Positions 3,431 through 64,000 of a stretch of DNA of 64,000 nucleotides are shown one piece after another. The position numbers and the translations under genes are program-made. Source of the DNA: Paraescarpia echinospica (taxonomy: Eukaryota > Annelida > Polychaeta > Sabellida > Siboglinidae); assembly GCA_020002185.1 (NCBI GenBank), contig CM034542.1, forward strand, positions 55,752,626 through 55,816,625. Direction: 5' to 3'. Every line of letters begins with the position of its first letter. The first letter of the stretch is position 1. The notes beneath the pieces were generated by a model. The model did no database searches. It was not told the DNA's origin and saw nothing but the letters and a program-made list of their open reading frames with translations.

Positions 3431-3439
3431 CCGTAAATG

Positions 3440-3600: not shown

Positions 3601-3633
3601 AGCTGTTAGTCAAGATGTGATAGATCCTGGGCA

Positions 3634-6600: not shown

Positions 6601-6611
6601 TAATAACCAAT

Positions 6612-10060: not shown

Positions 10061-10215
10061 TGACAGACTGCTGCTGATATTGGCCAATGACAGTCTGAAC
10101 TGCTGATATCAACCAATGACAGACTGTTACAGATATCCATAAAAGGCAGACAGCTACTGATATCAACCAATGATAGACTGCTGCTTATATCAGCCAATGA
10201 CAGAATTATATAAAG
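10061..10215. repeat. Short degenerate tandem repeat
   Basis: Five or so imperfect copies of 'aaccaatgacagactgctgc' with 'tgatatc', some inverted-CCAAT-like. They lie about 300 bp upstream of the first coding exon, so they could sit in or near the promoter region; I see no direct promoter signal. Confidence 0.6.
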
Positions 10216-10551
10216 GAGAAGACTGATATCAAATAGATATAAAATGGCAAAATAACTCAACAAATGAAGTTTGAATAACTAAGAAATTACCCGCTATACC
10301 AGCCACATTTCACCTAACCTTGTACATTTACGATACAACAAACAATAAAATAATTGTCTTCTCCGACTACTTAATGCAGTGATCCTACACCACGGCCACC
10401 ATTCTAGGAGCGTCCAAAGTCCAGCCACAACCATCCAAGATGTTGTCATTGTTAATTCATGACTTCCTGTTGGTGAGATAGTAATTAGTCTGATTACATG
10501 TCTGACGAGAGACTGTTAACTTGTCAGGTCGGCAACGAGCGAGGCGGGATC

Positions 10552-10645
10552 ATGGACCACCTGGTGGCCAACCTGCTCAACCAGTATCTCGGCAAGTATG
10601 TCCTGAACCTCGCAAGCGAAAACCTCAATGTCGGCATCTTCAGCG
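10552..10645 (+). CDS. Vps13: Vps13 coding exon 1
   Basis: Encodes residues 1-31 plus one base: 'MDHLVANLLNQYLGKYVLNL' and on to 'NVGIFS', the amphipathic start of the Chorein_N domain that caps the lipid groove. The donor is G|gtaagg, phase 1. The exact 5' end is uncertain (see the gene entry). Confidence 0.9.
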
Positions 10646-13600
10646 GTAAGGCATCATCATTGTTGTTGCTGTGGTTGTTGCATGTTGTTGTTGCTTACAG
10701 CTGTTGTTTGTAGATTTTGTTTGTGGTTGTTGCTTGTGGTTTTTGTTTGTGGTTGTTGCTTGTGGTTTTTGCTTGTGGTTGTTGCTTGTGGTTTTTGTTT
10801 GTGGTTGTTGCTTGTGGTTGTTACTTGTGGTTTTTGTTTGTGGTTGTTGCTTGTGGTTGTTGCTTGTGGTTGTTGCGTGCTGTTGTGATTGTGGTTGTTG
10901 CTTGTGGTTGGGGTTTTGGTTGTTAAATGCTTGCGGTTGTAGCATCTGATTGTTGCCTATGTTGTTATTTGTAGTTATTGATATTGGTTACGTGGCTTAT
11001 TGTTGTTGGTTGCTGATGTTGCAGGCAGTTGTGGGTTGTATTTGTGCCTTGTGGTTGTTGCTTGCAGTTGTTGTCACTGTTGTTTCTTTCTTTATTGCTT
11101 GTGTTTGTTATTTGTAATTTTTGCTTACATTTGTTTCTTGTGGTTGTTGATTGTGTACGTTGCTAGTGGTTGTTGCTAGAAGATATTACAGGTGGTTGTT
11201 GCTAGAAGTTGTTGCTTGTCATTGTTGCATGTGGTTGTTGATGTGGTTATTGTTTGCAGTTGTTTGCAATTGTTTGTTGTTGCTAGTGGTTGTTGCCAGT
11301 GGTTGTTGCTAGTGATTGTTGCTAGTGGTTGTTGCTAGTGGTTGTTGTTAGTTGTTGTTGCAAGTGGTGGTTGCTAGCGGTTGTTGCAAGTTGTTGTTGC
11401 AAGTGGTTGTTGCTAGTGGTTGTTGCTAGTGGTTGTTGCTAGCGGTTGTTGCACTAACACCTGTATTGGTGACGTCATCAATCTTCCCCTGGCCACAAAC
11501 CTGACAGCTTTAATGACTGAACTCTTCTGCAGTGTCCATCAGAGAACTGACCAGTTCTGATGTGGTGATCACCACACCTGTTGTGTGGCTCAATCATTCC
11601 ACTAATTGCATTCTCACCTTAATGGGCTAGTCAAGTTTCCAGTAATTTGAGTCTCGTCACAATGGAGCATGCTGTCATTCTCCCACCTACTCTCAAGCTC
11701 ATTTTCCGCGGGAGGGGAAACAGTGCAGATGTGTAATCCTCTGCGAAGACTGTGACTTAGTCTAATGCGGTCTTTGATCACTTCTTTTTCAACTGCTCAG
11801 GCTGACGTGGCAATGTTGTTGTACAAGAACGTGGCAGGTTTTTTACTGAAGTGTTAAATTTTTCATGTTTTTATTTTGACTTATCTGTGGGTGATAATGG
11901 TCCACACTTATTTATTGCACCTCACTGTCAACAGCAGATGTTCAGTCTAATTTCTCGTGTCCATTTCACTAACATGCTTACGAGCTCTTAAACCCGACTT
12001 TGCACTTTAAAATAGATTTCGCTGCTTAACAGTGATCTTGTGTACTGAAAACTGTCAACATCAAGACATGCTACCGGGACACTTTCGCTGGTATGTCACA
12101 GAAATAGTGTCCATTGTGATATGGCGGCAGTGTTTTGCATTTTGAAAAAGCTTCTTAAATTAAACAATGGATTATGTTGAATGATGGATTCTCCTTGTGA
12201 GCTCATTGTGTCAATGGAACGGTCCCCTGGTCTCGTCCCAACATGTCTTTACTGAAGTCCTCTCTTCCGCTGACCTCTAGACTCAGTACCTCACTTACAG
12301 GATTCTCTTGTCTTATGGCAAATATGCCCAGTCTGCCAGCATTTCCTTCATATGAAGACATAAGATGGATTCAGGGATGAATGTCTCATCCTTGATCTAG
12401 TTAACAAGATATGCAGTGTCATTATTTCACTCATTGATTATAGCATGTGTAGAGTCTTGAGCACAATTTTGTTTTTTAATTCCGTCAACTTTAATATTTC
12501 TGTGATGGATCTCCTATCCCATAATTGACATCGACATTCCAGTTATTCTGCACAATGTGCTGTTGCCAGTCTGTTTGATTTTTCTCTGTTTTTAACATAA
12601 TAAAAATATTTTATCAAGTTTATTTTGGTTCTGTATGAGTTATTCTGTACTATTGGGACAAATAATTCCTGTTTGATGATTCCTGATTGATGAGAATAAT
12701 AGATGTCTTTCTCATTACGCAGTCTCCTGGAATCTTGTTTGCAGCATGTGCGGGTTTTGTGGTGAGTTAGCTGCTTGACAGAGAGAATAATTGATGGAAT
12801 GGAGACTTGCATGATGCCATTACGTCCTGCTGTGGTCGTTGGACATGTCTCTCCAATATGTAGCCGTCCCGATGGCACATGTTACTAATGACGACGAACC
12901 ACATTAAAGACCAGCTAGGGTTGATGCAGCTCCATTCCATACACCTGTTAAATCTCCCGTTTCTGATGGCTGAATCCCATGTTTTTTACCAATCTGTGGA
13001 TTGACAAATGTTTGATGAAATCAATCATGATTGAAGCTTCCATCCATGTCCCATTTTCAGACAATCTCCTCTTTTTTAAAAGTAAATTTTTATGGTGTTT
13101 TGTAGATATATGGCATTAAATGGCAAACATACAAGTTTATAAACATATAACTTTTAACTACAATGACAAGTTATGTAAATGTCTAAGTCTGTCTCTAATT
13201 GCAACCTTAAGATCTGACAGACCCACTTTTTAAACATACATCATTGATGTAATTATTTGTTTTTTCCAGGCGAGGTTGAACTAAAAGATTTACAACTACG
13301 ACCAGAGGCCTTGGTAAGTCAGAAACCTTTCTATTACGTCGAATATTGTAAACAGTGAACACCCACTCATACTTTTGATTGCCCGTCTATCAAACAAGAC
13401 ATGGCAGTCTTCATTGGTAACTAAAATGCCATCCCCACATGGGCTTCTATAAACATAACATTGCCATTATTGCAGGACACTGGAAAATATAAGCTTTCTA
13501 TATAAATGCCAGAGCATCACAGACGACAATTGGTCGATTCCTGATGATTGTAAAGACTGTTTTCACAATGTTGTTGCTTAAGTACAGCCAGTATTCTAAT

Positions 13601-16600
13601 ATCTTTCCTTCTAAAAGGTCATTTACATTTTATCTGCTTTCTACAATAATTATTACTCTTTCTACTGAAGACTTATTTTCATTATTTTTTGTTGCCTAAA
13701 TACAGCGAGTATGTAAAATTTATTTTAGTTATTGCTTTCTGATGTATTATGAAGATATTATATGAAGAAACGTGTTTGATGGGTGGTTAGTTCATGTGTT
13801 GATTTTTCAATTTTTTAGATATATATATCTTAATGTTATTGTATTTCAATTAAGATGTTTCTTAATATTATTGTTTTTAAATTGCCGATTAGGATGTTAA
13901 AAAGCATAACATAAAGCATAATTTCAGTGATTAAATTATTTTGTCATTATCATAGTAAAACTTTTACGATCGTTTTTTAACAGACCTAAGCCAGCCAGTT
14001 ATTGGCTACACATGCCTATAATTGACACACTGATGACGTGGGCAAATTACGGGGCTATTTACCTGAGAAAGCAGTGTTGATTTATTTCCTGGAGCAAGCA
14101 AGATGAGACAGTTTTTGTGCTGTTAAACTGAAACAGTGTTGCCTGTTTTATTTCTAGTTTGAGCTTCAGCTGCCTGTGGAAGTGAAGGCCGGAGTTGTGG
14201 GTAAGTGATCCTGCGTCTTCTTCTTCATCATCTTCTTCATCTTTTTTCCTTTTCTTGAACGTTTTCTCTACTTCACCTTCTTCCATTTCTACTTCTTCCT
14301 TTTCTTAATCTTTTTTCTTCATCCTCTTCTATTTCTTCTTTTTCATCATCTTCTTTTTATTCTTCCTCATCCTCCTTTTCCTCCTCTTTGTTTTCTACTT
14401 CTTCCTCTTCTTTTTCTTCCTCTTCTTCATCATCTTCTTCATCATCCTTTTCCTCAATTTCCTCTTCTTCTTCATTTTCCCTCTTCTTCTTAATCTTCTT
14501 CTTCCTGATCCTCCTTTTCGTTGTCTTCCTCTTCTACTTCTTCTACCTCTTCTTCATCATCTTCTTCATCTTCTTCCAATACTACACCTTCTTCATTTTC
14601 TTCATCATCATCTACTTCTTCGACTTCTTCATCTTCTTTTTCTTGTTTTTCATCTTCTTATTATTTTTCATCTTATTAATATTATTCGTTTTCATCTTCT
14701 TCAAGTTATTATTATTCTATCCCAAAACAGCAGTAGATGGTATTAAACGACCATTGTGTTGATCAACAGTTTGGGTGCACTAACCACTAAACCGGTGCTT
14801 CAACTTGCTTGAAATACCATTATCGTGACACCATTTCCTCAAACCCTTGAGTAGGTCTCTATAACTCTGGCTTCATGCTCATACCAGTTTTGTGTGGCAT
14901 TAGTGGAACCATACACAGGCGATTACTGCTGTTGACCAAACACGAACACACAAATGTAAATGGAAAGAAGACAGTGTAAAAGCTATAAGCCTTGCTATCT
15001 TTCATATAAATATGCCCATTTTGTAAAGCATGCAAGATAAATTTTGAGTCGTCGTTTGCTAAGTAGTTGGTGACAAAATAAATTTCAAAGCATGCAGTTT
15101 TTTTATAGTAAAAAACAAATTGTGTCTTGCACACAGTGTGACATTGCCTGATGCACTTTAAGCGTAGGGTTTAATGGAGAAATCAATAAGAGCTGAATGC
15201 GACTATGACTGAGTATACACAGGGGTACGGTGATCATGGCTCGGTGTCACACAGTAGGGTTTAGTGGAGAAGACATAAATAGGTGTGTAAATAATTAAAG
15301 ACAACAGGGCTAGAGATTAAACAGCGACCCAGCAGTCTTATTCAGTGCATTGAGCTGTTGGTGCACTCGGAGTTGCACTAAGTGCTGCTAGACTCATTAG
15401 TGAGTGCCAGGAACAACTGACAGCGAGAAACACCTCTCACACTTACACTAGGGGTGTCAGTTGGGGCTAGGGTGCAATGTTCTGTGTGTGTGTGTGCACG
15501 TGTGTGTGCGTGGGTGTATGGGTGTTTGTGTATGTGTGTGAGTGTGTGTGTGTGTTTGTGTACATGTGCATAAATGTTTTTGTGCGTGTGCATGCATGTG
15601 TATGTGCGTGTGTTTCAGTGTGTTTGTATATATGTGAGTAAGTGATAAGTGTGTGTGTTTGTGTGTGTATATGTGTGTGTGTACATCTGCAAGCGTGTGC
15701 GCGTGAATTCATGGGTATACATGTGTGTGAGTGTACATGATGTGTATGTGTGTGTGATGTGCATGTGTGAATGTGTATGTATGTGCATGTGTGCGTGTGT
15801 GTGCATGCACGTGAGCAAGCATACATACATGTGTCTGTGTGCAGTGTACACATACATTCACTCACATCTGTTAATTGTTATGTACATACCTGCATGTCCA
15901 ACTGCATACAAATGCACGCAGTGTAGCATTCATGTATGCATGCTTGTGTCCAATCAAGCATGCAGCGTGGGCGTCTGTATTGACCATGGCTGACATGCAT
16001 AGAATGCATTGTCCTGTCCGTGTGTTTTTTTTCTTAATATATTTATTGATTTCCTGCCTTCAGTTCATAGCTTGGCATTCCAGGATCAGTGATCCACGAT
16101 CTATGATCTAGCATGCTCCAACACCGTCAGACGTCTGATTAGTTCTCTCACAGTCATTCGGTTGTTAAATAAACATTTCCTCTATTGCTTTCCTATATTT
16201 ATCTAGAATATAATCAGTTCATATCTTTTCCTGTATTATTTGCAAGATGTTTATTGGTTCAGTGGAGATAGCTAGTTAAAGTTTATTACATCGTGTGTAG
16301 ATCAACACATCGCTAAGAAGTCTGTTTTGTTTTGTCATACTGTTTAACGTTAACATGACAGACATTTTCCCTTTGTTCGCGTGATATCACCTGTGTGATA
16401 TTGCCTATATGTGATATTGCCTGTATGATATCGCCTGTGTGATAGCACCTATGTAAACACATTGTGTTCACTTGCCCATGTAATTTCATGTATTTTCACT
16501 CATCATAATCATAAACATCGATCTATTTCCAATTTGGGACGTAAAAGAACCACTGAGGACGACAAGCACCCTGGCAGTGACCACCCTCAGTGCCAGCATA

Positions 16601-19600
16601 GAAAGGTCGGCTTGGCGATAATGTTCTGAAAAAGGCTTACTAGTTGAATGAGACCTCATAAGATCATAACATTGTAACCTCACAATATACAGACTAGTCA
16701 GTTAATAGAACGTTGCCGAGTGCTGGAAACAACTAGAACTAGAAGAACTAGAATATTTACTCTCTGTTGCCTACCTACAGGACAGTTTTCAGCTCATCAT
16801 CTTAATGCCTACTTATCAAGTGTGCTTTCTCTCAAACTGTGCCCAAAATTTTAAATGAAACACTACTTTCTACTCCCCCCATAAATGAAGACATTCGAAA
16901 CTGCAGTTCTACCCTAATTTCTTAACATTTTCTCTTTCAGATGATGACTTTTGCACGTCCGTTTTCATGATTTATATTTTATTATTCTGGTTTGGTGCTC
17001 CTCTGAACTTGAGTTCACGAATGTTTAGACACCATAATAGTTTATTGTTGTTACGTCTTTGTCTGGTGATCAGGGCTTGCTAGTGGTGTGACGACTTACG
17101 TCATGTCACCTTTCTTTCTCGGTCCACATTAGCGTTCATTTGGCAGAACATATCTATTGCAAACACCAGCCCACGTAACTCCTCTTTGCCAGATGGTCCT
17201 GTTTGCAAATGCTGTAATCAGCTGTTTGACAATAAAGCTCTGTTCAATAATGACGTTAGGCAGGTTTTATTTTCTAATATTTCCATTCAGTTTCACTTTG
17301 ATCGTTGAGAAGCTTCTGTTGTGCAATATCATTCACCACGGGAAGCATGAAACACAAAAATATCATTCACCACGGGAAGCATGAAACACAACAATATCAT
17401 TCACCACGGGAAGCATGAAACACAACAATATCATTCACCACAGGAAGCATGAAACACAACAATATCATTCACCACGGGAAGCATGAAACACAACAATATC
17501 ATTCACCACGGGAAGCATGAAACACAACAATATCATTCACCACGGGAAGCATGAAACACAACAATATCATTCACCACGGGAAGCATGAAACACAACAATA
17601 TCATTCACCACGGGAAGCATGAAACACAACAATATCATTCACCACGGGAAGCATGAAACACAACAATATCATTCACCACGGGAAGCATGAAACACAACAA
17701 TATCATTCACCACGGGAAGCATGAAACACAACAATATCATTCACCACGGGAAGCATGAAACACAACAATATCATTCACCACGGGAAGCATGAAACACAAC
17801 AATATCATTCACCACGGGAAGCATGAAACACAACAATATCATTCACCACGGGAAGCATGAAACACAACAATATCATTCACCACGGGAAGCATGAAACACA
17901 ACGATAGATAGGTTGGAATAAATGTTGGTTGTAATTTTATTGGATGTAGTAGTGATATCATGGGCTCGTGGTACACTAGAACACACATGTAATTCCTCGT
18001 ATTGATTTCTTCAGTGACGGTTAACCATATGTGATATGACAGCAACAGGTTTGATTGACGCATTATTCTGACACTGACCCTAACAGTAACAATGAATGAT
18101 GTATAACTTACCCTTTTGATTGACGCATTATTCTGACACTGACCCTAACAATAACAATGAATGCATATATAACTTACCCTTTTGATTGACGCATTATTCT
18201 GACAGTGACCCTAACAATAACAATAACGTGATATGACAGCAACAGGTTTGATTGACGCATTATTCTGACACTGACCCTAACAATAACAATGAATGATGTA
18301 TAACTTACCCTTTTGATTGACGCATTATTCTGACACTGACCCTAACAATAACAATGAATGCATATATAACTTACCCTTTTGATTGACGCATTATTCTGAC
18401 AGTGACCCTAACAATAACAATGAATGCATATATAACTTATCCTTTTGATTGACGCATTATTCTGACACTGACCCTAACAATAACAATGAATGCATATATA
18501 ACTTACCCTTTTGATTGACGCATTATTCTGACACTGACCCTAACAATAACAATGAATACATATATATATAACTTACTCTTTTGATTGACGCATTATTCTG
18601 ACACTGACCCTAAGAATAACAATGAATGCATATATAACTTACCCTTTTGACTGACGCATTATTCTGACACTGACCCTAACAATAACAATGAATGCATATA
18701 TATAACTTACCCTTTTGATTGACGCATTATTCTGACACTGACCCTAAGAATAACAATTAATGCATATATATAACTTACCCTTTTGATTGACGCATTATTC
18801 TGACACTGACCCTAAGAATAACAATGAATGCATATATAACTTACCCTTTTGATTGATGCATTATTCTGACACTGACCCTAACAATAACAATGAATGATAT
18901 ATAATTTACCCTTTTGATTGACGCATTATTCTGACACTGACCCTAACAATAACAATGAATGATATATAACATACCCTTTTGATTGACACATTATTCTGAC
19001 ACTGACCCTAACAATAACAATGAATGATATATAACTTACCCTTTTGATTGACGCATTATTCTGACACTGACCCTAAGAATAACAATGAATGATATATAAT
19101 TTACCCTTTTGATTGATGCATTATTCTGACGCTAACCATAACAAATAATAATTAATGCATATATAAAATGTTGAACAAACCTTAACCCTTTTGATTGATC
19201 CATTATTTTGACCCAGCAGTAGTTGCAAAACAACGAGGGTTATTATGGTATATCTGTGACAACATCTGTGACAACATCTGTTACAACATCTGTGACAACA
19301 TCTGTGACAACATGTGATGTTGGTGACAGGGCGGATCCATCTGACAATCCCGTGGACGTCCCTCTACACGAGTTCAGTGACAGTGGTCCTTGAAGATGTC
19401 TACATCCTGGTCTCGCCGATCGCAGACAGGAAGTACGACGCAGCAAAGGATGCAACACAACGTAATGCCATCAAACAACAAATTCTGGCGAAGTTGGAGA
19501 ATCCACAAGATCAAAAGAAAGGTGGTATAGCTTTAGTAAATATAATTACTTGTGGGGTTTAATCTTGTTTATTTTTGTTGTTGTGAGTGTGTGTATGTGT

Positions 19601-22600
19601 GTGTGTGTGTGTGTGTGCGTGCGTGTGTGTGTGCGTGTGTGTGTTTGCGTGTGTACGGATGCATTTGTGTGTCTACCACTGTTTTATATAAATGGATTTT
19701 ATCCACGCTGTCTCTGAAACTTGTTGCTGTAAATTGCTGCATCGATAAATCTTTTAAAATCAAGTCATCAGTCTGTCCTGATGTCGCTGCTTCACGCAGT
19801 CAACCAACATGAGATTCACAGCAATCTGCTCCAGTCAGACAAAGTCACCACAGGAATGTCAGAAGACAAGATGCATTTTTATTAAAACTCCTGTCTCAGA
19901 AATAGCTCTGTGACATTTACCGAATATTGCAGTTGTGATTAAATTTCCCCCCACATCCACCATTGCAAACCCATTCACCTAATCTGGCATGTCTACTTTC
20001 TAATTTCCGCAGCCTATAAACACATCTCACTGTCTCATTTCAAAGTACATCTGTGATGTCAGTTTTTCTGCATTGGTGAAAGTGTGTGATTAAACGTGAT
20101 TCTGTGGCACTGACTGTATGCTTATGTTTGTGAAAGGTTAGCTGCACAGCTGTCTGGCAAATGTATCTAGCATGTCTCAGTGCAGCTGTGATATTGTTTA
20201 TTACGTGTGTCAGTTGAGCTGTTATTTATCTCCATTTGACAGACCTTTAATATTTAACCAAGTATATATATATGTATATACATATATATATGTGTATATA
20301 TATATATACATTACGTATATATGTATGTATATATATATACATACATATATATATATACATGGCACTTGCGGTTTGTTTCTCTCTTTCGTTGTCGATTTTG
20401 TTGTGATTACAAACTTCCTGTGTGATCAGTTTTAATCCAGTGATTCTGCACAGTTCTATGATGTATTTGTTACGTTGTCTGTGATTTGTCATCCATCGCT
20501 TAACATATTTTTTTAACATTTCCAGTCCTTCTAATGTTAGTGTTATTTCAGTGATTAGATGGATTGGAAAGATAAACAATTACTATTTATGTTTTGTATG
20601 CATTAGCCAATGTTTGAATCAGCCAGATGTAGTTTTTTTTAACGATAAATTACGTTGGTGTTCACAAATGTTCTTTATTAATGTCTGGTTGGGTGTATAG
20701 AAGTATTGATTCTGTTTGTAGATGGATCGTCCGTGGAAGACCAGGGCTTTGTAGAGAAGCTGATGGCAACAGTTATAAATAACATCCAAGTAAGTGATGT
20801 CGAAAATAAAGGAGGAATTAGTAGCACAAACTGAAAATAAAACTAAGGTGTGAATGTGACGATACTTTAGCACAAGATGGATGTGGTATTGGCAACCTCG
20901 ATAGTTACTGTCTGCAGTTGTGATGTATGTACAGTGTTATCACAACATCATAACCAATCAATGTTGTCAATCCAATATTGATTTATGGTTTGATATTTGT
21001 GATGTAAAATCGTTACCATAAACAAGTGGCGCACAGTAACATAATTGGACTCTCAGTCGAGGAAACCAGAATTCAAATCCTGTTGGTGCTGTTTCAAAAT
21101 TTTTGCAATTTTGTGCATTCCACATTGCCTTTGTTCATTCGACTGTATTAATGTATACCCAGCTATAAACAGTACTTGATACAAGTGAACAAATAGTCTT
21201 CAAGTAGTTTTATTACAGCATGGCTGAATTCTTCCAAGAAAAGTGGAGATGGCATTTGATTGAACAGGTCCACCTGGGAGTGAGGTGTAAAGTGCTTTGG
21301 GCAGTCTTAATAACTGGATATCTCGCTGTATCAGAATTTACATTTAAGCCTCTCTTCACTCCACAGATATCAGTCCATCACATCCACATTCGCTACGAAG
21401 ATGTCACGAATCGGCAACATCCATTCTCGTGTGGTATCATGCTGAAGAAGTTGACAGCGGAAACAACAACTGACCAGTGGAAACCAACTCAGATTAACGG
21501 AAGTGCAACCAGAATTCACAAGGTACTGGTTGTGGGCAGAGACATCAATTAGAGCATAGATTGGTTTGTTCCTTGGTTAAGTAATTTATAGTCATATTTA
21601 CACATCTTTGACATTTTTAATCATATAGTAATTTTTGAAAAAAATTAATTGTTTCTTTCATGTAATACATTAGCTGAACATCAAACTTGTTAGTGTTTGA
21701 TTTAGGTGCAAAAGAAGTTATTTATTATTATTATTAATTTGGCAGGATATATTATGATACTTCTTCAACTGACCATATTTTTATCTTGCTAATCCTCCTT
21801 AGCGCCATGGTTATTAATCAAGTAATGACAATATTGTGATTTGACACTGCCTATTCCTATGGTTTTGACGTACCTATGAGCTTGGGTTGCAGAGGATTTT
21901 GGTGTAATCGCATCTTTATATTTGACTATAACTGGAAATAGTAATAAATTACTTATTATGTGTCAAAGTAAGTTATGTCTGAATCATACCTAGTCTACTC
22001 TTACATCTTCTTCTTCCGTCGCCATTATCCCTCACGGTGTCGGCCTGGAGTGTAGTAGTCATCGTCACTTTTTCCGGTCTTGCATGTCTTCTTCCAGCCC
22101 CGTCAACTCCATGTCCTTCTTCACACTGTCTTTCCATTTTTGCTGGTCTCCCTCTTTTCCTTTTCCCAGTGACTGGCAAGCCTGCTGCTATTCTCAGTGC
22201 TGTTCCTCTCTTCTCTGGACGTGGCCATACCAGCGAAGCCGGTCATCTCTCAACTTCTCTTCTATGCCCTCAACACCCGCCAGCTGTCGCACCTCCTCAT
22301 TTGTTTTCACTTCCCTGAGTGAGATGTTCTTCGCCCATCTGATCATCCTCATCTCAGTTCGCAAGAGGAGGGGCTGTTCCATTCTCTTCAGGGCCTATGT
22401 CTCCGCTGTGTACACAAGGACTGGCCGAATCACCACGCTGTAGATCTTGGTCTTTCGCTTGTGTGGTAACCTGCGGTCACAAATGACTCCACTTGTTTCC
22501 CTCCACTTCCGCCAGGCTGTATTGACTCTTGCCTTAACAGCCATTTCACAGCCTCCGTCCTCCTGTATCACAGATCCTAGGTACTTGAATTCGGTGACTT

Positions 22601-49600: not shown

Positions 49601-52600
49601 ATGAAGGAATGTCTGACATGCACTTCAGCCATTTTATAAGCTTGATGGATGTGGTTGCTAGGCAAACAGTGAGGTGATTGATCCATCATGTGACCTGTCG
49701 TCTAGCAACAAGGTACATCAAGCAATCAAAAATGGATGCCGAACATATGGAGCATTCAAACATTCATTGTATTTTTTTTTTAAAGTCTGGCCCAAAGAAA
49801 TAGTAATACATTTTATTTCCACAGTAGCGTTATAATACATACGTGATTTTATGTTTTAATTGTATTCATAATTATTGTAGAAAAGCAGAAAGCAAAAATT
49901 TAACACTTATGAAGTGCTTCCCCAAAAAGTTTAACACTGATGAAATGCTTCCCCCAAATGTTTAACACTTATGAAGTGATTCCCCCAGATGTTTAACACT
50001 TATGAAGTGCTTCCCCCAAATGTTTAACACTTATGAAGTGCTTCCCCCAAATGTTTTCTTTATGACAAAAACATAAGGCAAAGTTGCATAAGGGAGAACT
50101 TATGAAGCACTTCCCACAAATATTTAACACTTATGAAGTGCTTCCCCCAAATGTTTAACACTTATGAAGTACTTCCCCAAAAAATTTAACACTTATGAAG
50201 CACATCCCCCAAATGTTTAACACATATGAAGTGCTTCCCCCAAACGTTTAACAGTTATGAAGTGCTTCCCCCAAATGTTTAACACTTATGAAGTGCTTCC
50301 CCCAAATGTTTAACACTTATGAAGTGCTTCCCACAAATGTTTAACACTTATGAAGTGCTTCCCCAAATGTTTAACACTTATGAAGTGCTTCCCCCAAATG
50401 TTTAACACTTATGAAGTGCTTCCCCCAAATGTTTTCTTTATGACAAAAACATAAGGCAAAGTTGCATAAGGGAGAACTGTATGCAGGAATGTTTGAACTA
50501 GCAGATGTCATGCCATAATGCACATATATTACTTTTATTAGCATTGTTGGCAAGACAAAGCTTGACGGAGGTCACGTGCATATTTATGACTGTGACATTG
50601 GCAAACCCTGATGTACCGTATCCAACAATTGCAAATTTAAAATCCATAAAGAAAAGATATCAGATGAAAGAACTAAGTTTGCCCAATCAGACTCTGTCTT
50701 TGTCAAAACCATCTGTTTTGTGGCCATCAGCGTTCGAGGTGGCATGGATCGCGGCATGCAGAAGAGTACCAGTACCGTCCTGTCCGTTCAAATGGAACAG
50801 TCTCAGCCGGACTCACCCAGTCTCCTGCAGCGAATCTCGTCACAGGTGGAAGAAGGTGGATCTAACATTCAACCTACTTCATCATTACAGCAAGCTATTT
50901 CTGTGTGCTTTCTAAACTGACAGCATGTTTTGGCTTGAATTATTTTGAAGGCTTGGATACTATTTACTGCAGAGCCGTAAAATTATTTTTCAAATTATTA
51001 TAACTTCCAAAGGAGTGTGGGTAAAACTCAGAATGTCCAAAACAATGCTAATAAAATAAAATGCTAATAAATATAATTTTATTATGAAATAATAAATATG
51101 TTAATGTTTGCTATATTTAAACTATTTATTATGTGCTTCACTTTTTACACCAAGTCTTATATATTATATATATAATACTGTAAGTAATGATAATAATATA
51201 GTTCCATAGCATTTACACCTTAGCAGTATGAACTCAGAGGTGTAACAAATAAAAATCATTAGGCAAAATCATGAAAAGGGATATGCAAAAGTAATCTGCC
51301 AAGCTTTAAAGTGAAAATTTAATTTAAAAAATTGTGATTCAAAACATTTCTCCATGTATTGCACAAGATTAATATTTTCTGTGCCACATTTCATATGTAG
51401 TCAACATTGGATTTAATGATTTATGTCTTTCTCGTTTATAGATCCCATCACCGGGGTCACACAGCTCCATCTGGTGGCCAAACTGGATGACCTTGAAATG
51501 AAATTGTGTGATCACGAGAACGACTTCGCAGAAATAAAAGCACGAGGTCAGGATGATATCAGTGTTGATACTTATTTACCAAGTAGAGTAATTATTATAA
51601 AACAATCTAAGTAAACGTTCAGTTACATAAGAATATTACTATGTGAAGTGTTGTGCAACTAGTAAATTAACTAATGTGTTTATTACACAGGAAAATCTAA
51701 AATAAAATGTATGAAATGTTGACAAAATTACTGATTTTAAGTATGCATGTTATAGGTTTTGAAGGAATAGTTATAAAGAAGCCATCGAAAGTAACCTTCC
51801 ATGTGAAACTCAGTGACTTCTCGATTGACGACCTAACGGAGAATACCCTCTACCCCAGGGTAAGTCTGATTCCACCTTAAACTACCCTAAACTCTTATCT
51901 ACAAGACAAGTGTTTATTAGATATCATCAGGCAATGCTAATTTTTGTATATTTATAAAATAATTATATTATTCCCTGTATCTCAATAGAGTTATTTTGAA
52001 CTTTGTGTTACCAAACAAACAATTAATAAGCCCCCTGGGGTTTCTAGAGAATCTCCTGAGTTACTTGATGAAACTATAATTTCGTTCTTACATGTAATAC
52101 TGTAACCGAGTAACTAAATAAACTTTCAAACCTTATAATGGGTTGGCAGTCTAAGACTTTCACGGTATAGTAGGATGAAGTGATGCTTCCCTGAGAAGTC
52201 GAGTTGGTGTTCGATTGAACAGTTCTGCCAGGGAGTAAAGTGAAAAGTGCTTTGAGCAGTCCCAATGACTGGATTCTGCGCTATATAAGAACTTACCTTT
52301 TTACCTTTTAAAATGAATTGATGCAACAACTGATTGTGCCTTTTTTCAGCTGCTGGTCATTGAAGATGATGAGGTGTTTGACTTAAAGGTGCGTGATTTT
52401 AACATATTTAAACTAGTCAGTCTGCTATTGCAATACCGACCAGTTTGCTATTATCAATATTACTACTAATACTATTAGTAGTATTAGCTATTAGTAGTAT
52501 TAGCATTTTATGTTATTAATTTTACAGATAATTAATAAACGCCCATTCTTTCCTTATCACGACTAAAGTTTTTGCACAAACACAACAAATTGATAGCATA

Positions 52601-55600
52601 GTTTGAACATGAAGAGTTATTTTAAATATATGATGATGTTTTGTATGATATATGACCTTGTGTATGTTCCCATGGTTAAACTACGATTTCTGTTAGTGTT
52701 CACAACAGTGACCAGTTTGTTACTGTTACTTTTACTAATGTCATCATGTCACTCTTTGTACCATCAATGAGTCTGACAGAAGGATATCCATCCTTTCCTG
52801 CAGTGACCAAGAATACCATGAAAAACAACAAAATAGCAGTTTATTTTAAATAATAATAAATAATAATATATATATATATATACATCCAAGTAATTGTTCT
52901 TTGGCGGAGTATGTTGTCACCAAAACAATAATAGTGATAAGGTAACTTCTTTTGTGCCTAAGGCATTGGAAACCAAGCTGAGAGGTGCATCAAGACACAA
53001 GGGTAGGTTAATCTCAAAATCAGTAAACAGTATTCAAGTTGTCAACAGATGGATGCAAGCGCCATGGAGCTAAATAGACACTTTTAAAATATGGGCAGAT
53101 ATTAAACACTATAGAATGTATATTTAGGTATGAGAGATCAGTGTAATCAGTGAGTGTGTGTTGTAGTTTGTGAGCTACACGAAGCCAACCCTAAAGACAG
53201 ACGCAATATCCAAGAAGCGGACAGCAGTGGACATGTCACTGCGACTGAGGATAGGGCGACTACAGGGAACCCTGCTCTATAAGTTCATCTCGGAGATCAA
53301 GGTTTGTGTAGGGGCAGTCTCCAAAACATCAAGTATGAAAAATTTCATTTTATCTTTGGACTCCCCTCCCACTAAATGAAAATTTGAATTGAATGAATAA
53401 AACTTTATTTCAACAACAATAAAAATAATAAAAACAGTATTATTGAATTACGTTGGCCATAAGTGTGAAATGTCTACATTCTTCATGATGTTGCCATAGT
53501 ATACCTCACAGGCATCTATACTATACCAATACGCTGACTTTGGAGCATTGTAAGTGCATCTCCTCTGAGGTGGCACAGGTTCACTCACCTCTCTCTCTAT
53601 GTTCATTCATCTCCTCTGAGATGGCACATGGGTCAACTCATCTCTTCCTATATGTTCATTCATCTCCTCTGAGGTGGCACAAAGGTCCACTCATCTCTCT
53701 CTCTATGTTCATTCATCTCATCTGAGGTGGCACAGAGGTCCACTCATCTCTCTCTCTATGTTCATTCATCTCATCTGAGGTGGCACAAAGGTCCACTCAT
53801 CTCTCTCTAAGTTCATTCATCTCATCTGAGGTTGCACAGAGGTCCACTCATCTCTCTCTCTCTACGTTCATTCATCTCATCTGAGGTGGCACAAAGGTCC
53901 ACTCATCTCTCTCTCTATGTTCATTCATCTCATCTGAGGTGGCACAAAGGTCCACTCATCTCTCTCTCTCTATGTTCATTCATCTCATCTGAGGTTGCAC
54001 AGAGGTCCGCTCATCTCTCTCTCTCTATGTTCATTCATCTCATCTGAGGTGGCACAAAGGTCCACTCATCTCTCTCTCTATGTTCATTCATCTCATCTGA
54101 GGTGGCACAAAGGTCCACTCATCTCTCTCTCTATGTTCATTCATCTCATTTGAGGTGGCACAGAGGTCCACTCATCTCTCTCTATTTTCATTCATCTCCT
54201 CTGAGGTGGCACAGAGGTCCACTCATCCCTCTCTCTCTCTATGTTCATTCATCTCCTCTGAGGTGGCACAGAGGTCCACTCACCTCTCTCTCTCTCTATG
54301 TTCATTCATCTCCTCTGAGGCGGCACAGAGGTCCACTCATCTCTCTCTCTATGTTCATTCATCTCCTGTGAGATGGCACAGAGGTCCACTCATCTCTCTC
54401 TATTTTCATTCATCTCCTCTGAGGCGGCACAGAGGTCCTCTCATCTCTCTCTCTATGTTCATTCATCTCCTCTGAGGGGGCACAGAGGTCCACTCATCTC
54501 TCAATGTTCATTCATCTCCTTGCACCATTCCCCTCTCATCTAACAATTGTCGATGTATTTAAGAAAACACAACAACAGTTATTTACTGAGGGGCACAGTG
54601 GCATAGTGGCTAGAGCGTTGGACTCTCAATAGAGACAACCAGGGTTTGATTCCTGTGCTGCCATGTCAAACCTTGGGCAAATTCATTCACTCTGCTTAGA
54701 TCGAGTTCACTCAGCTGTATGAATGAGTACCTGGCTATAGACAATGGTGGGTATTTGTATATGAATAGTCATCGCGCAGTAATGGCTGCATGGCTGAATG
54801 CTTCCCAGTGAAGTCGCGATGGTGTTTGATTGAACATGTCTGCTGGGGAGTAAAATGTAAAGCATTTTGAGTAGTCCTAAGCATTGGATACTGCACTATG
54901 TAAGAATTTACCTTTTTATTTTACTTGTTATTTAGAATTCACTCAGACTGACATAAAATTGTTCACAGAATTTCTTGGACCCGTTCATGAACCCAGAAGT
55001 GACGAAGGCCTATAAAGTGGCAGCTCAGAAGGCCATCAACGACAAGGTGGAGTACTCTCACATCCACAATGTAGACATACCCTGGGTGGAGTACTCTCAC
55101 ATCCACAATGCATACATACCCTGGGTGGAGTACTCTCACATCCGCAATGTATACATACCCTGGGTGGACTACTCTCACATCCACAATGTATACATACCCT
55201 GGGAGGACGTGCAATCTATTTGTATAAGAAGTTGATATATGAAATAATTATTGCAATATTTTAAATCCATGCAAAAAAGTGTTGGCAAAGCTCTTCTTGG
55301 GGAAATATGTGTGGGCTATGAAAACTACCACATTTCCACAAGATGGGTTCGATTATATTTTCTTATAATTCTGGGAATGTTTCTTTTATCGCAAACTGTT
55401 TTTTTGGGGGGAAGAAACACTTTATATATGTCGAAAGATTTCTACTTTATTGTCTATTTCGCATTTCTATATTTTCGATTGATTTATGTATTATGTGAAA
55501 TGAAAACAATAAACTTATAACTTATCATTGTAATAGGAGCAAGGAGGAGAAGAACAATGTATATTATTCTTAATTAAGTCTCTCTGATTCTGTTTTAGAT

Positions 55601-58600
55601 CCAGGACGTTCAGGAACAGGGGACTCGGATCCGACTGACGGTCGACATCAAAGCGCCCTCTGTACATGTACCTCAGAACTCGGAATCGACAAGTGTCATC
55701 GTTCTCAAGCTTGGTGACCTGCATGTGACGAACTCCTTTGAGGACTCTGAAGTCGGTGGAATCACACAGAAGTGGGACCACTTGTATCTGAAGCTACAGG
55801 CCCTCAAAGTGATCAGGTACTTCTCTTCTCTCAGTAGATGCTCACAATCATTTGGTTGATTATTCTGGCAATAACGCTAACTAAAGTTTAGAGAATGAGA
55901 TCCAAGCTAAGTGAATCCATGACAGGTTTTTCCATTTCCCATCGTGGGATCTTTTACTTCGCCTGGCACAGACACACCAGATGGAAGGGACCAACCATTT
56001 ATAGCGTCTGTTCCAAAAGACAGGCAACATAGGGTGAATTAAATTGGCCCTAAGTTTTGACACAGTGGTCAGTACCAGGATTCAAACTCAGGTTCCTTCA
56101 ATCAACAGTCCAGCACCACCGTCCACTTGACCATCGCTCCCCAGTTCACGCCCCATCATCATCGTCTTCATAATAATCATCGTCATCATCATCATGTTTT
56201 TTGTGTGCTGCATTCATTGACAATCTTGTCCCTCCAATTTCGTGCAACAGTTCAGATGTCATTAATGCTACCAATTACCATAATAATAACATATAATATT
56301 ATTAAAGTTAAGCCTTGCTATAATGGCCACCCTGTGAATTGAAGCAAAGAAACCATAATAACAAAGTGAACGTAATAGTGAATCTGGTTACCAAAGCATC
56401 ACAAGCATTCCAAAACATTGTGATCTGCTTTTGAATAATTTTTTCAATCCTCGAATATACTTTACAATGTTTAATTAGCATCTTTCCAGTAAACAACTAC
56501 CTCCAAAATAAATTAGAATTAATGTGACTGCATTTTAATGCAAAGCAACATTTTGAAACACATTTTTTTTATTTAAGTGTATTTCTAAATTAGTTATATA
56601 ATGATATCAGTGTTTAAAAAAGTTTATTTGTTTATAACATTTGCAGAATATGGCATCACCATAGTTATTTTGATAATAGGTTATGAAATATGTTACCGTT
56701 AAAAATTTCATAATTTCAGAGGGAAACTAAACATGAATGGATACATCGAGCACGTTCACACAGTCGTTGACCCAACTAACCTGCGACTAGACCTGAAGAG
56801 GGCGTTGCCGCCCATCCAGACGGATTGTACGCATGATTTCAGTGGACATCTTCACATGATCAAGGTTTGTAGAGTATAGAATGAATGATTTCATCATATA
56901 GTATTGGTTTAAGTCACAAACTGTTATGCAAACAGTTAGTCGTAATTAATACTTAATTTGAGGAATATTAATAAATATCAAAATAAAAGCAAAATAATGA
57001 TTATTTAGGGACTCTTATCTTAAAATAACATGTAATTAGCGATAACTGCTAATATGTCAATCTTGGTTAGTGTCTATTTCTGTAATTTATTTTCATATAG
57101 TAATATTTTAAAGGATTTTTAACACATTTTATCTGCAGAAAACTATGCCACAATTTATCTTTTATACTTCAGTTTTGTTTCTATTCGTTATTAGAAAAAA
57201 CTATTTTGTTATGTAGAATTGCTTTACAAATTGACATAATTTAACATTCTTAGGTAAACTGTGGGTTGTTTGTCAACGACAGGTCCAAGTGACGCAGCTG
57301 GACCTGAAGGTTGTCATGGCGATACTTCACGAGAACTTCAGCGAGACTAGCAACAAACCAGCCATTGTTGGTCAGTTTGTGTGTAGATCAGTTTGTGTGT
57401 TGGTCAGTTTGTGTATTGGTTAGTTTGTGTTGATCATTTTATGTTGATCGGTTTGTGTGTTGGTCAGTTTGTGTGTTGGTTAGTTTATGTGTTGGTTGGT
57501 TTGTGTTGGTCAGTTTATATATTGGTAAATTTGTGTGTTGGTCAGTTTAAAAGTTGGTCATGTTGTGTGTTGGTCAGTTTGTGTGTTGGTCAATTTGTGT
57601 GTTGGTCAGTTTAAATGTTGGTCATGTTGTATGTTGGTCAGTTTGAGTGTTGGTCAGTTTGTGTGTTGGTCAGTTTGTGTGTCAGTCAGTTTGTGTGTTG
57701 GTCAGTTTGTGTGTTGGTCAGTTTGAGAGTTGGTCAGTTTGTGTGTTGGTCAGTTTGTGTGTCGGTCAGTTTGTGTGTCGGTCAGTGTGTGTGTGTTGGT
57801 CAGTTTGTGTGTTGGTCAGGTTGTGTTTTGGTCAGTTTGTGTGTTGGTCAGTTTGTGTGTTGGTCAGTTCATGTGTTGGTCAGTCCATATGTCAGTTAGT
57901 ATATTTAATAACAATAATGTTTTTATTTTTTATCTGATACATAAAGTACTTATTATGTTTGTGGTCAGTTTACGTGTCGGTCGGTTTACTTTCTCTGATT
58001 GTGTCCACTGCAGATGATGTTGACCTGAGCCCCCAGTTGACAGATGACCACGTGCTGGTGACCCAGGACAGTACTGACACGCAGATGCCGTGTCTCGAGT
58101 CTGTCGAGCCCCTCCTCGCCACGCCTGACGCGTCAGAGATCATCAAACAGACACGCTTCATGTTTGTCATGGACGGCACCCAGCTGAGACTGCTGCAAGA
58201 GGATGATGACCCCCTTGTGGTCAGTACCCCCACCCTAGATCCCCTTGTGGTCAGTACCCCCACCCTACACCCCCTTGTGGTCAGTACTCCCACCCTACAC
58301 CCCCTTGTGGTCAGTAGCCCCTAGACCCCCTTGTGATCAGTACCTCCAGATCCTCTTGTGTTCAGTACCCCCACCCTAGACCACCTTGTGGTCAGTCATC
58401 CCCCACTCTAGATCCCCTTGTGGTCAGTACCTCAGTTGGACTTGGACTAGGACAGCCTGCTTGCCACACCATCTGGCGAGCAGAGGAAGAACAGTTCCTG
58501 ATGCATCTATTGTAGTAGTTTTGGATTGTTTATCGAGGAAGGTAAACTGGACAGTGAAAGGTGAGATAATAAGTGATGCATTTCTGCCAGAATCACGACA

Positions 58601-61600
58601 TTGATGGGACAAGACTGAGACAGCTATTTTTGGCTCGTCTGCAGAATAGACCTGTGCAGCTTAACACCTGGTTCACTGTGGCGGGTGACAAATGTTCTTA
58701 AAGGTCAGTTTTTTTTCACTGCTTCATACATTTGATTCCCACCTGTTGCAGATGACATCGCCCGGCCAGGAGGAAGGAGACGGTCTTGCTCAGTTCGAGA
58801 CCGGAAAACTAGATTTGTCTGGACAGTGGAATAATGACGGCTCCCTTGAAGTTGACCTCTGTTTGAAGTCCGTGTCACTTGACGATGTGAGGGAGCATAG
58901 CAACTTGGCTGTGAAAAGGTCAGTATTTGTTTCTGGCATGTCAGTAATTACTATTTGTTTTTGACATTGGCTTTTAATAAGTTTAATATATGCATATATT
59001 TAATCTAATGTTATCTCAGTAATTAGCATAGATACTTCTAATTAATAATGACATGATGATACACATCATGTTTTTATACCCTTTTTATTAAAAATGTTAA
59101 ATACATATTTTTTTTATTGTGACAGTTATTATTTGTAATTTCCTATTTTAGTACTATACGGCTTAACAGTGTTTATTTAAATTCCTTTTGATGTCTATTT
59201 ATTTAATGATTTATTTATTTGTGAATTTTTTTAATATACATTTACTTTATTGTACAGTGTATCAGTCCACTAAGTAGGATTTAATGCTTAATAAATAAAC
59301 TATTATTATCGTGTCATTCATTCCAGTGCATGTATTTTGCAGGCTGATTCAATCGAGTAACCACGTACGAAGTAAATATGACACAGCACCACCTATGTTC
59401 CACATCAAGTACAAACAAGATGCCGAAAACAACCGATACAGTGAGTGGTTTGTAGACATCATTCAGTTGTTCATGTCTAGTTTAAGGTAACTTTCGTATG
59501 TCGTATTTTATAGCATAATCATTTGTACATATCATTGAAGACCAACCTGCATAAAGATAATTAACAACTAAACATAATTAACAACACGTTGAACAGCAAG
59601 CCAGTCATAACACTAAACAATTATATAAAGGGGGTGGCGGTTTGAAGATACTTAATTCCACATATATTAAAGTTCCTGTGTTTATTGCCAAACATGGGGA
59701 AAGTATTAAGACATGATACAAAAATGTATATCTTCTTACCAGCCGTGTACAATAGTTCTTTAACTGGTCATGCACGACCAAATAAGGAAGAAAGATGGGG
59801 AAGAGGACAGGATTCAAAGGTAGGAACCACGACCAATTGTGGTGGTGGGTATAAAAGTTATGTGATTCAGTCTTCAGTGGCAGCTTCCTTACTGTTCTGG
59901 TAATATATGTTGTGACATCATTTAACTCTTGATCTCAGAGGTCCCAAATTAACCTCCTAGTTCCCAAGCAAATTTGCTTTTGTACTGATGTCATGTTTTT
60001 TTGTCTGCAGTCTACATGTTATACTTTATTCATCAGCAAGCGTCAAAAACTATATATCAAATGAAAGCTAATAACTTATTTAATAAAGGTCATTTGTAAT
60101 AGTGTAACTTTTATAAGTGTTTGTATATCTTACAGTTACAATACAATTGTTTTATAAATGTTTGTATATCTTACAGTTACAATACAATTGTTTTATAAGT
60201 GTTTGTATATCTTACAGTTACAATACAATTGTTTTATAAGTGTTTGTATATCTTACAGTTACAATACAATTGTTTTATAAATGTTTGTATATCTTACAGT
60301 TACAATACAATTGTTTTATAAGTGTTTGTATATCTTACAGTTACAATACAATTGTTTTATAAGTGTTTGTATATCTTACAGTTACAATACAATTGTTTTA
60401 TAAGTGTTTGTATATCTTACAGTTACAATACAATTGTTTTATAAATGTTTTAGTTCATACAAACTTAAAATAATTACAGACACTGTCAACTTCAGATACC
60501 ATTATGACAATTATTAATACATTTTGACTGCAATATCAGTTATTGAAATCTTTGGAACTAAGTCCGTCCTGAGGCTGATTCAATTGGTACCAAATGTAAT
60601 TATGTAAATCAAAGTCACATGTATATATAAGTTTTTGACCACCAATGAAAACCAAAATCGCAAACATTTCTAACTACGAAAACGTCGACCATCTATCCTA
60701 TGCGTCCATGAAAACCATCAAAATAACCACCACCGGTGAACTCTTGAGTATTCAAGTTCATGCACAATTCGCATCCAGCTGTCATAGACATCGTTACCGA
60801 CTTGTACTTGACTTTGATCGAGTGAAAACAGCCACTAAATTACTGTCCAAAACATTATCTGAGTCATCATAAAATGCATGAGCATTGCTACCACCACGCA
60901 CAGCATCAATGGTGTCAGCCACTCTGTAACAAAAATGAAACTTAGCAGCGTATTTATTCAGATAAAACACTCAAAATCACCGTCAAAACCTTTAACTGAC
61001 AAGTGTATACAAAACGGAAGTGTCCCGGCCAAGTACACATACACACGTCTTGTGACATCATAGGGTGTGTACGTTTTTTAAGGTAATTCGATCGGCCTAC
61101 ACAACTACCTGAAAAGTTGTAGTTCCGATAGAAAGGGTAACTACGTGAAAAGTCGTAGTTGGAATAGAAAGGGTAACTACGTGGAAAGTCGTAGTTGGGA
61201 TAGAAAGGGTAACTACGTGAAAAGTCGTAGTTGGGATAGAAAGGGTAACTACGTGAAAAGTCGTAGTTGGGATAGAAAGGGTAACTACGTGAAAAGTCGT
61301 AGTTGGGATAGAAAGGGTAACTACGTGAAAAGTCGTAGTTGGAATAGAAAGGGTAACTTCGTGGAAAGTCGTAGTTGGGATAGAAAGGGTAACTACCTAA
61401 AAAGTGGTACCTGGTAGTTGGGATAGAAAGGGTAACTACGTGAAAAGTGGTAGTTGGATTAGAAAGGGTAACTACATGAAAAGTTGTAGTTGGGATAGAA
61501 AGGGTAACTACGTGAACAGTTGTATTTGGAAAAAAAGAGTTAAGCTAGCGAAATAGTTATCTGGCAGTAATTTTAATCAGCTCATGGTTGTAAAATAGTT

Positions 61601-62319: not shown

Positions 62320-62334
62320 GTGAGCCTTAGCGAA

Positions 62335-62635
62335 TGTATGTATTTGGACACTGAATGTATTTGGACATTGGATGTGTTTGGACACTGGATGTATTTGGAC
62401 ACTGGGTGTATTTGGACATTGGATGTATTTGGACACTAGGTGTATTTGGACACTGGATGTATTTGTACACTGGATGTGTTTGGACACTGGATGTGTTTGG
62501 ACACTGGATGTGTTTGGACACTGGATGTGTTTGGACACTGGACGTGTTTGGACACTGGATGTGTTTGGACACTGGATGTTTTTGGACACTGGATGTGTTT
62601 GGACACTGGATGTATTTGGACACTCTATGTGTTGG
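62335..62635. repeat. 18-bp minisatellite just after exon 39
   Basis: Units 'tttggacactggatgtgt', about 16 copies, starting about 15-20 bp after the donor. The 6-residue repeat frame (WTLDVFGH-like) is an artefact. Confidence 0.96.
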
Positions 62636-62689
62636 ATACCCTAAAAATCTGCAAAATGTATTACTAATATTAAGAAAGCAACAAAATAA

Positions 62690-63000
62690 GTCCACAATAG
62701 TGATTAAAAAGCCAACAGAATGATGTGTGTTTGTTAAAATGTGATATGTTTAAGAGAAGTATGGGGGTCTACAATCCAACGTCAGGCCTGTCATTGTGCT
62801 CATACTAGTCTCCTGTACCTCAGGTTCATAGAGCCCACACATCCGCACATATAACAATTATAGCAGTATTGCTGTAACTGATATAGAAAACAATGGCATT
62901 ACTGCTGTAATGACAGTAGACGTACTGCTTGGTACACTACTAACCAAGTACACCAGTCGACCTCGCCAAATATAGCAGAAACATTCAATGCTGAAGAATG
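62690..63000 (-). repeat. Dispersed repeat, family B, copy 3 (partial)
   Basis: Same orientation as 48270-48880: 'gtcaggcctgtcattgtgct', 'tagtctcctgtacctcaggt', 'gagcccaca' and 'tggcattactgctgtaatga'. Confidence 0.75.
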
Positions 63001-63123
63001 TCACTATATCTAGATTAGAATAAATGTAAAAGTGGGATCATTTCACCACTCTATGTACCTTATGTAATCAGACACACCCATAAAAATAACTTTCCTATAT
63101 ATTTGGAACCAGTTATTAGTGAT

Positions 63124-64000
63124 CTTTTATGAAGTCTGCCTTCTCACAGATGATGTTACACAGTCCTATTTACGAAGTCTGCCTTCTCACAGATGACGTT
63201 ACACAGTCCTATTTACGAAGTCTGCTTTCTCACAGATGACGTTACACAGTCCTATTTACAAAGTCTGCCTTCTCACAGATGACGTTACACAGTCCTATTT
63301 ATGAAGTCTGCCTTCTCACAGATGATGTTACACAGTCCTATTTACGAAGTCTACCTTCTCACAGATGATGTTACACAGTCCTATTTACGAAGTCTGCCTT
63401 CTCACAGATGATGTTACACAGTCCTATTTACGAAGTCTGCCTTCTCACAGATGATGTTACACAGTCCTATTTATGAAGTATACCTTCTCACAGATGATGC
63501 TACACAGTCCTATTTATGAAGTCTGCCTTCTCACAGATGATGTTACACAGTCCTATTTATGAAGTCTGTCTTCTCACAGATGATGTTACACAGTCCTATT
63601 TATGAAGTCTGCCTTCTCACAGATGATGTTACACAGTCCTATTTACGAAGTCTGCCTTCTCACAGATGATGTTACACAGTCCTATTTATGAAGTCTGCCT
63701 TCTCACAGATGATGTTACACAGTCCTATTTATGAAGTCTGCCTTCTCACAGATGATGTTACACAGTCCTATTTACGAAGTCTGCCTTCTCACAGATGATG
63801 TTACACAGTCCTATTTATGAAGTCTGCCTTCTCACAGATGATGTTACACAGTCCTATTTACGAAGTATGCCTTCTCACAGACGATGTTACACAGTCCTAT
63901 TTACAAAGTATACCTTCTCACAGATGATGTTACACAGTCCTATTTACGAAGTCTGCCTTCTCACAGATGATGTTACACAGTCCTATTTACGAAGTCTGCC
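63124..64000. repeat. 43-bp minisatellite running off the right edge, about 20 copies
   Basis: Unit 'gatgatgttacacagtccta' followed by 'tttatgaagtctgccttctc' and 'aca'. Each unit carries 'tctgccttctcacag', an acceptor-like string; whether the array adjoins the next exon cannot be seen. Confidence 0.97.

Follow-up and report, generated by a model that had tools for sequence, protein, structure and literature searches.

Mirage minisatellites were reportedly described in amphioxus by Canestro et al. in 2002, and their name is said to have been coined in cephalochordates. Tandem repeats that run across exon borders, 5′ as well as 3′, are reported for amphioxus Adh3 and the globin genes BflGb6 and BflGb9, with unit lengths of 10-72 bp in Adh3 and 150-160 bp in the globins (PMC3087553), and further ones for amphioxus PGBD5 and TnC (PMC3902484). 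According to these two papers, such repeats appear to leave regular splicing undisturbed. Human genes located in segmental duplications contain variable internal tandem repeats at exon-intron boundaries (PMC2812944), and earthworm metallothionein genes harbor intron-1 minisatellites with a mean monomer of 178-181 bp (PMC12783039). Here we describe repeats of this kind in a 64,000-nucleotide stretch of DNA of Paraescarpia echinospica (contig CM034542.1; the whole stretch is referred to as the window), the plus strand of which carries exons 1-39, the 5′ part, of the gene for a very large VPS13A/C-like lipid-transfer protein. As in the amphioxus mirages, repeat units of this gene span the exon-intron border, in this case at 5 of 77 junctions, and both boundary types are affected (donors of exons 10, 24, 35 and 36; acceptor of exon 9). 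We consider it probable that local tandem duplication, at times spanning a splice site, was tolerated here as the copies fall in the intron, and that these arrays are mirages outside the chordates.

The gene model comprises 4,872 exonic nucleotides and 1,624 codons, with compatible phases and without stops. It was obtained by spliced alignment guided by a human VPS13A sequence, after which the borders were corrected by hand. Pfam domains were detected in three of the five open reading frames (ORFs) scanned, VPS13_N (E 2e-11 and 0.004) and VPS13_M (E 4e-6). All scores were below the curated cut-offs, as expected because the ORFs are exon fragments. One ORF matched four PDB sequences, each of them a VPS13 chain. 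A 2,013-residue protein of another animal, P0001, is collinear with the model and 55% identical to it over the whole model; its contig spans 6,235 bases and is therefore cDNA-like. Junction 32/33 was the sole junction where the alignment with P0001 had a gap exactly at the junction (two residues), and the start of exon 33 was therefore shifted to 55599. A few residues away from junctions 4/5, 14/15, 22/23 and 27/28 the alignment also has gaps, each one to three residues long. Judged by this collinear relative, the exon borders discussed below appear to be well supported, and the exon numbering of the first-pass annotation of the window agrees with our model. Exon 13 has a GC donor at 29257, making intron 13 a GC-AG intron in the model. 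Two exons proposed by the first spliced alignment were discarded: one at 58380-58541 was spurious and its place was taken by exons 35 and 36, and an exon 40 inside a 43-bp array (63126-64000) was rejected as its translation does not go on like P0001. This latter array is located in the intron after exon 39 and runs off the window; its consensus unit contains an acceptor-like motif (TTCTCACAG).

The contents of the repeat units were analyzed with probes that joined the last or first 70 bases before the border on its exon side to 40 bases of intron, and these were compared with the adjacent intron over at most 1,500 bases (score at least 30, self hits dropped). For exons shorter than 70 nt the "exonic" part of the probe extends into the preceding intron. 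Copies were present in the adjacent intron at 11 of the 39 donors (exons 1, 3, 8, 10, 12, 20, 24, 32, 35, 36 and 39) and at 4 of the 38 acceptors (exons 4, 9, 10 and 22). The same probes, when compared with introns of other exons (20 shifts), gave 0 matches out of 780 for donors and 5 out of 760 for acceptors. The junction itself, taken as at least five exonic nucleotides within an intronic copy, was copied at the five junctions mentioned above. The longest exonic stretches were found at acceptor 9, where the four copies match 57/58, 53/55, 37/39 and 6/6 exonic nucleotides, and at donor 10, where a single copy matches 37/42. Four copies at donor 36 match 11/12, 11/12, 11/11 and 10/12 exonic nucleotides, one copy at donor 24 matches 8/8, and three copies at donor 35 match 5/5. 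With a more stringent probe centred on the junction (12 bases each of exon and intron, 19 matches out of 24, no gaps), copies were detected at 2 of 39 donors (exons 10 and 36) and 1 of 38 acceptors (exon 9). At donors 12 and 32 the copied part includes a single exonic nucleotide, the 39-bp unit of exon 32 beginning at the GT, and it is purely intronic at donors 8, 20 and 39 and at acceptor 22. The earlier claim that the unit is the local junction sequence is thus strictly valid for the five junctions; at the others, units are intronic or have the GT as their first bases.

Several introns contain sequences resembling their own splice sites. Donor look-alikes (at most 3 mismatches in 13) number 31 in the intron following exon 35, five in that following exon 36, four for exon 24, and two each for exons 32, 10 and 3. 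Acceptor look-alikes (at most 5 mismatches in 18) number six for exon 9 and one each for acceptors 5 and 8. Given that other introns contain such look-alikes at 0 to 0.23 per kb, the small counts (exon 3, acceptors 5 and 8) may be due to chance. On the plus strand of the window, the core words of five junctions (exons 9, 24, 32, 35 and 36) are restricted to the intron of the respective junction. The junction units are therefore of local origin. Cross-array BLAST matches were few and were confined to GT-rich or simple arrays, neighbouring arrays in introns 12 and 24, and one inverted pair consisting of a 91-bp array in intron 14 (36 copies, 30993-34283) and a 53-bp array in intron 31 (53557-54520), which are 70.7% identical over 150 bp (E 3e-11). 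A single mobile repeat behind all arrays, which the first-pass annotation had already dismissed, is rejected for the junction arrays by the BLAST and core-word results, but the arrays in introns 14 and 31 do share an inverted unit.

Tandem Repeats Finder (TRF) returned 82 rows in the window, which were merged to 46 arrays in the gene region. Its mask covers 33.7% of introns 1-38 and 24.4% of the upstream flank (bases 1-10551), as against 73 of the 4,872 exonic bases. Arrays are therefore common both inside and outside the gene and avoid the coding sequence and, since they fill 34% of the intron sequence and 24% of the upstream flank, many will be near exons by chance. Relative to the first intron base, arrays start at -1 for donors 24 and 32, at -5 for donor 35 and at -12 for donor 36, and farther into the intron for donors 8 (+12), 10 (+15), 39 (+18), 12 (+38) and 20 (+72). 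The array at exon 9 has TRF periods of 49-128 bp. Repeats are thus found at or near every junction at which arrays had been said to begin exactly at, or to contain, the splice junction, but an exact start fits only exons 24, 32, 35 and 36. Arrays that had escaped the earlier inspection are located near donors 1 (+16) and 3 (+15) and acceptors 4 (16 nt) and 10 (11 nt).

Two placement tests were used to determine whether array ends are enriched at splice sites. In the first one, arrays were set at random within their own introns without exon overlap. Nine of the 46 arrays start no more than 20 nt from a donor, where 2.26 would be expected (P 0.00015), and four end no more than 20 nt from an acceptor, where 2.19 would be expected (P 0.16). 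With the limit set to 5, 10 and 40 nt, donors have 4, 4 and 11 such starts (P 0.003, 0.026 and 0.00025) and acceptors 2, 2 and 4 such ends (P 0.13, 0.33 and 0.64). The second, permissive test allowed exon overlap of just under one unit, which a duplication across a junction would produce, capped at 129 nt, with arrays placed independently. For the 46 arrays it gave four donor crossings versus 2.13 expected (P 0.15) and no acceptor excess, neither in proximity (4 versus 3.34, P 0.43) nor in crossing (1 versus 2.08). Hence, an excess of array ends beyond chance is observed for donors and not for acceptors. These P values are optimistic, as the thresholds were chosen after the arrays had been seen and the gene was picked for its odd look.

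A profile of local copies that does not depend on TRF, and from which self matches are excluded, gave 10/39 for the first 40 intron bases on the donor side, 8/39 at +20, 13/38 at +60, 14/37 at +100, 6/33 at +200 and 9/17 at +400. On the acceptor side it went from 4/38 for the last 40 bases to 8/26 at 250. The far offsets rest on longer introns only, and exon 10 is absent from this profile, its copy being mainly exonic. Local-copy density showed no peak at the 39 donors, and the contrast between donors and acceptors at the border was not significant (10/39 versus 4/38, Fisher P 0.14; 11/39 versus 4/38, P 0.08). The view of the first-pass annotation that a recurring process amplifies exon borders is consistent with the excess of donor starts, but finds little backing in the missing density peak, the missing acceptor excess and the densely populated upstream flank.

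From these results we infer a duplication mechanism, use of the authentic splice sites and a selective filter. Minisatellites would arise in the introns and upstream flank of the gene when a segment is locally duplicated in tandem and then undergoes slippage or unequal exchange, and some of the founding duplications would span or abut a splice site. The outer, authentic junction would still be used and the new copies, sitting in the intron, would be free to multiply, and duplications reaching into coding sequence would be removed by selection. The outcome would be arrays whose limit towards the exon is set by the authentic junction and which, at five junctions, consist of junction copies. Duplication combined with selection would lead one to expect that arrays stop at exons, that some units hold exonic sequence and that units differ between exons. 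In agreement with this explanation, the local-copy density does not fall towards the donor, and with crossing counts of 4 versus 2.1 expected at donors and 1 versus 2.1 at acceptors under permissive placement, no targeting would be needed. The suggestion, also made in the first-pass annotation, that selection tolerates arrays as long as they leave the splice sites intact agrees with the data no less than a junction-amplifying process. Several observations weigh against local duplication with selection, however. Under permissive placement, donor starts within 20 nt were still in excess for the 46 arrays (9 versus 3.44 expected, P 0.004), for the 41 arrays with a period of at least 9 (8 versus 3.22, P 0.009) and for the 26 arrays that also score at least 100 (6 versus 2.60, P 0.03). 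Plain random nucleation does not predict this excess, and local duplication with selection does not fully explain it. The intronic constraint is shorter at donors (about 6 nt) than at acceptors, which require a polypyrimidine tract and a branch point; this could generate a difference between donors and acceptors, not a donor count above uniform placement. In addition, the inverted pair of non-junction arrays in introns 14 and 31 indicates that some units are beyond purely local, and P0001, which supports the exon borders, is silent on decoy use in this animal.

The donor excess would be accounted for by a duplication process aimed at or near 5′ splice sites, for instance through a transcription- or splicing-linked DNA structure, such that arrays nucleate more at donors. 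The 9 of 46 array starts (2.3 or 3.4 expected, P 0.00015 or 0.004) and the four arrays that begin at or inside the exon edge argue for such a process. We nevertheless regard it as rather unlikely, because local copies show no density peak at donors, acceptors show no excess although the longest exonic copies are found at one (exon 9), donors and acceptors do not differ significantly when compared directly (P 0.14 and 0.08), and the data come from a single gene selected for its pattern. Its extension to a lineage-wide duplication preferentially starting at the 5′ splice sites of transcribed genes is unlikely; mirages would then be independent of those of lancelets, and donors would be genome-wide nucleation points for repeats, decoy sites and possibly introns. 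The arrays could also be remnants of intron birth, in which tandem duplication of exonic segments with proto-splice sites made the new introns. Arrays of junction copies are in line with what has been proposed for the globin genes of amphioxus (PMC3087553), and the look-alikes of the exon 35 donor reach position 609 of the 643-nt intron 35. Many arrays occupy only part of their intron though, and copies at exons other than 9 and 10 include no more than 12 nt of exonic sequence, which makes this origin very unlikely.

It is highly improbable that the decoy sites are functional, either by alternative use that adds in-frame repeats or by 5′-site arrays that recruit U1 and protect the transcript. 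The first stop is encountered 1 nt past the donor of exon 10, and at 5 nt for exon 24, 14 nt for exon 8, 50 nt for exon 35 (16-bp unit), 102 nt for exon 36, 111 nt for exon 12, 117 nt for exon 39 and 186 nt for exon 32. Read-through is open for 186 and 102 nt at exons 32 and 36, where decoy use would add 13 or 10 residues per unit (39 and 30 bp, respectively), and is closed within 14 nt at exons 24, 10 and 8. No such in-protein repeats were found in P0001 in its alignment with the model. Finally, long near-identical arrays (for example 17324-17906, 99% matches) are prone to mis-assembly, and copy numbers, or some arrays, might be assembly artefacts. This is the least probable explanation, since the junction copies have diverged (11/12, 37/42 and 53/55 exonic matches) and several arrays are short. 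Local duplication tolerated at splice sites therefore is the explanation that we prefer.

The window contains other repeats as well. At 1-1898 there is a 39-bp array of about 48 copies, in which 54 of 86 differences from the consensus fall on one codon phase, mostly at few positions. A 611-codon open frame runs through it on the plus strand and a 539-codon frame is present on the minus strand; the unit is nearly stop-proof in its frame (0.13 stops expected), so that this openness is no evidence of coding. A dispersed family of about 330 bp, resembling short interspersed elements (SINEs), occurs in full and partial copies. Rfam gave no matches at gathering scores and ARAGORN no genes in the window, and the SINE-like family is without a match in either. 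A direct duplication of 233 bp (98.7% identical) is found at 48927-49159 and 49347-49579, and two copies of another dispersed repeat, with 73% identity over about 370 bp, at 48361-48724 and 62670-63036.

Table 1. Positions within the window of the gene, its repeat arrays and the SINE-like copies.
Feature	Position	Strand	Evidence or remarks
VPS13A/C-like gene, exons 1-39	10552..62319	+	Pfam, spliced alignment, collinearity with P0001; continues beyond window
Exon 9	25344..25465	+	Spliced alignment, P0001 comparison
GTTGTTGCTTGTG array from 16 nt past exon 1 donor	10662..11452	+	TRF
TCT-rich array from 15 nt past exon 3 donor	14216..14711	+	TRF
12-bp array, end 16 nt before exon 4 acceptor	19252..19313	+	TRF, probes
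36-bp-based array from 12 nt past exon 8 donor	24587..24784	+	TRF
Array spanning exon 9 acceptor (25344)	24943..25397	+	TRF; three long copies with 37-57 matching exonic bases
10/30-bp array, end 11 nt before exon 10 acceptor	25874..25948	+	TRF
Intronic copy of exon 10 end and its donor	26181..26231	+	Donors 81 nt apart; 37/42 exonic nt
22-bp and 17-bp arrays downstream of exon 10 donor (26142)	26157..26732	+	TRF
35-bp arrays, intron 12	28257..28788	+	Copies of up to first 38 intron bases
TCAC-rich simple array, intron 20	40389..40517	+	TRF
47-bp array, end 3 nt before last base of intron 21 (acceptor 22)	40847..41161	+	TRF
33-bp arrays, two TRF stretches, from exon 24 donor (43588)	43587..44065	+	GTGAGTGACAC 4 times including junction
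39-bp array, 4 copies, unit from GT of exon 32 donor (55047)	55046..55207	+	TRF, probes
16-bp array from 5 nt inside exon 35	57366..57884	+	TRF; 31 donor look-alikes in intron 35
30-bp array from 12 nt inside exon 36	58208..58431	+	CTTGTG/GTCAGT (slash, junction) 6 times including junction
17-bp array from 18 nt past exon 39 donor (62320)	62338..62624	+	TRF
SINE-like family copies	4331-4631, 7234-7567, 21045-21345, 27805-27947, 30294-30590	both in family	
SINE-like family copies, continued	41363-41691, 52183-52319, 54586-54922, 61666-62000	both in family	

The resemblance to amphioxus mirages had led the first-pass annotation to hint at amphioxus as the source of the DNA. This was wrong. An IQ-TREE analysis of 29 proteins and 1,542 columns, with gastropods, bivalves and an octopus as the sampled molluscs, united the window protein with P0001 and another protein, P0016, in a 100/100 clade, which lies within a 100/100 group together with Lineus (a nemertean) and the sampled molluscs. 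The latter form a separate 100/100 clade, and the order in which nemertean, molluscs and window clade branch is poorly supported (56/72). Outside this group, on long branches, are a bryozoan and a rotifer. Branchiostoma groups with echinoderms and a hemichordate (83/80), apart from the window protein, which rules out an amphioxus origin of the locus. Identities to the model are 55% for P0001, 50% for P0016 and 44-45% for Haliotis and Patella. Together, these protein comparisons indicate that the host is a lophotrochozoan and not an amphioxus. Among the matches listed, none carried the name of an annelid, brachiopod or chiton, and judged by the proteins the host may belong to one of these groups or to a similar one, with an annelid as a guess. 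The comparison with amphioxus mirages is apt as anatomy (PMC3087553, PMC3902484), and not as an indicator of clade.

In a literature search judged mainly by titles and abstract openings, with most subscription papers outside its reach, no splice-site-spanning minisatellites in lophotrochozoans were found. Minisatellite arrays in introns of a lophotrochozoan gene are shared with the earthworm metallothionein genes; those arrays are restricted to the first intron and have units of 178-181 bp, and the available part of the report mentions no units spanning splice sites (PMC12783039). The human boundary repeats resemble those described here in that exon borders carry minisatellites with units of about 30 bp, but they alter the transcripts and can give rise to new introns in recent paralogues (PMC2812944), whereas no transcript change is known for the VPS13A/C-like gene. 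The closest similarity is to the amphioxus mirages: unit lengths are similar and many units carry splice signals. The units of 16, 30 and 33 bp are within the reported range, and those at exon 9 (49-128 bp) and exon 10 (81-nt spacing) fall partly between the two reported ranges. Unlike the amphioxus cases, the host is a lophotrochozoan instead of a cephalochordate, the five junctions belong to one gene, and the arrays are described from a single sequence. Selection by the spliceosome among almost identical sites could be studied naturally at the donor of exon 35, which has 31 look-alikes in its intron, and at the acceptor of exon 9, which has six. At five junctions the locus fits the anatomical definition of a mirage, and so extends a known kind of repeat to another branch of the animals. 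If minisatellites that span exon borders are found both in lancelets and in a protostome, they would be a repeated outcome of duplication near splice sites and no cephalochordate oddity.

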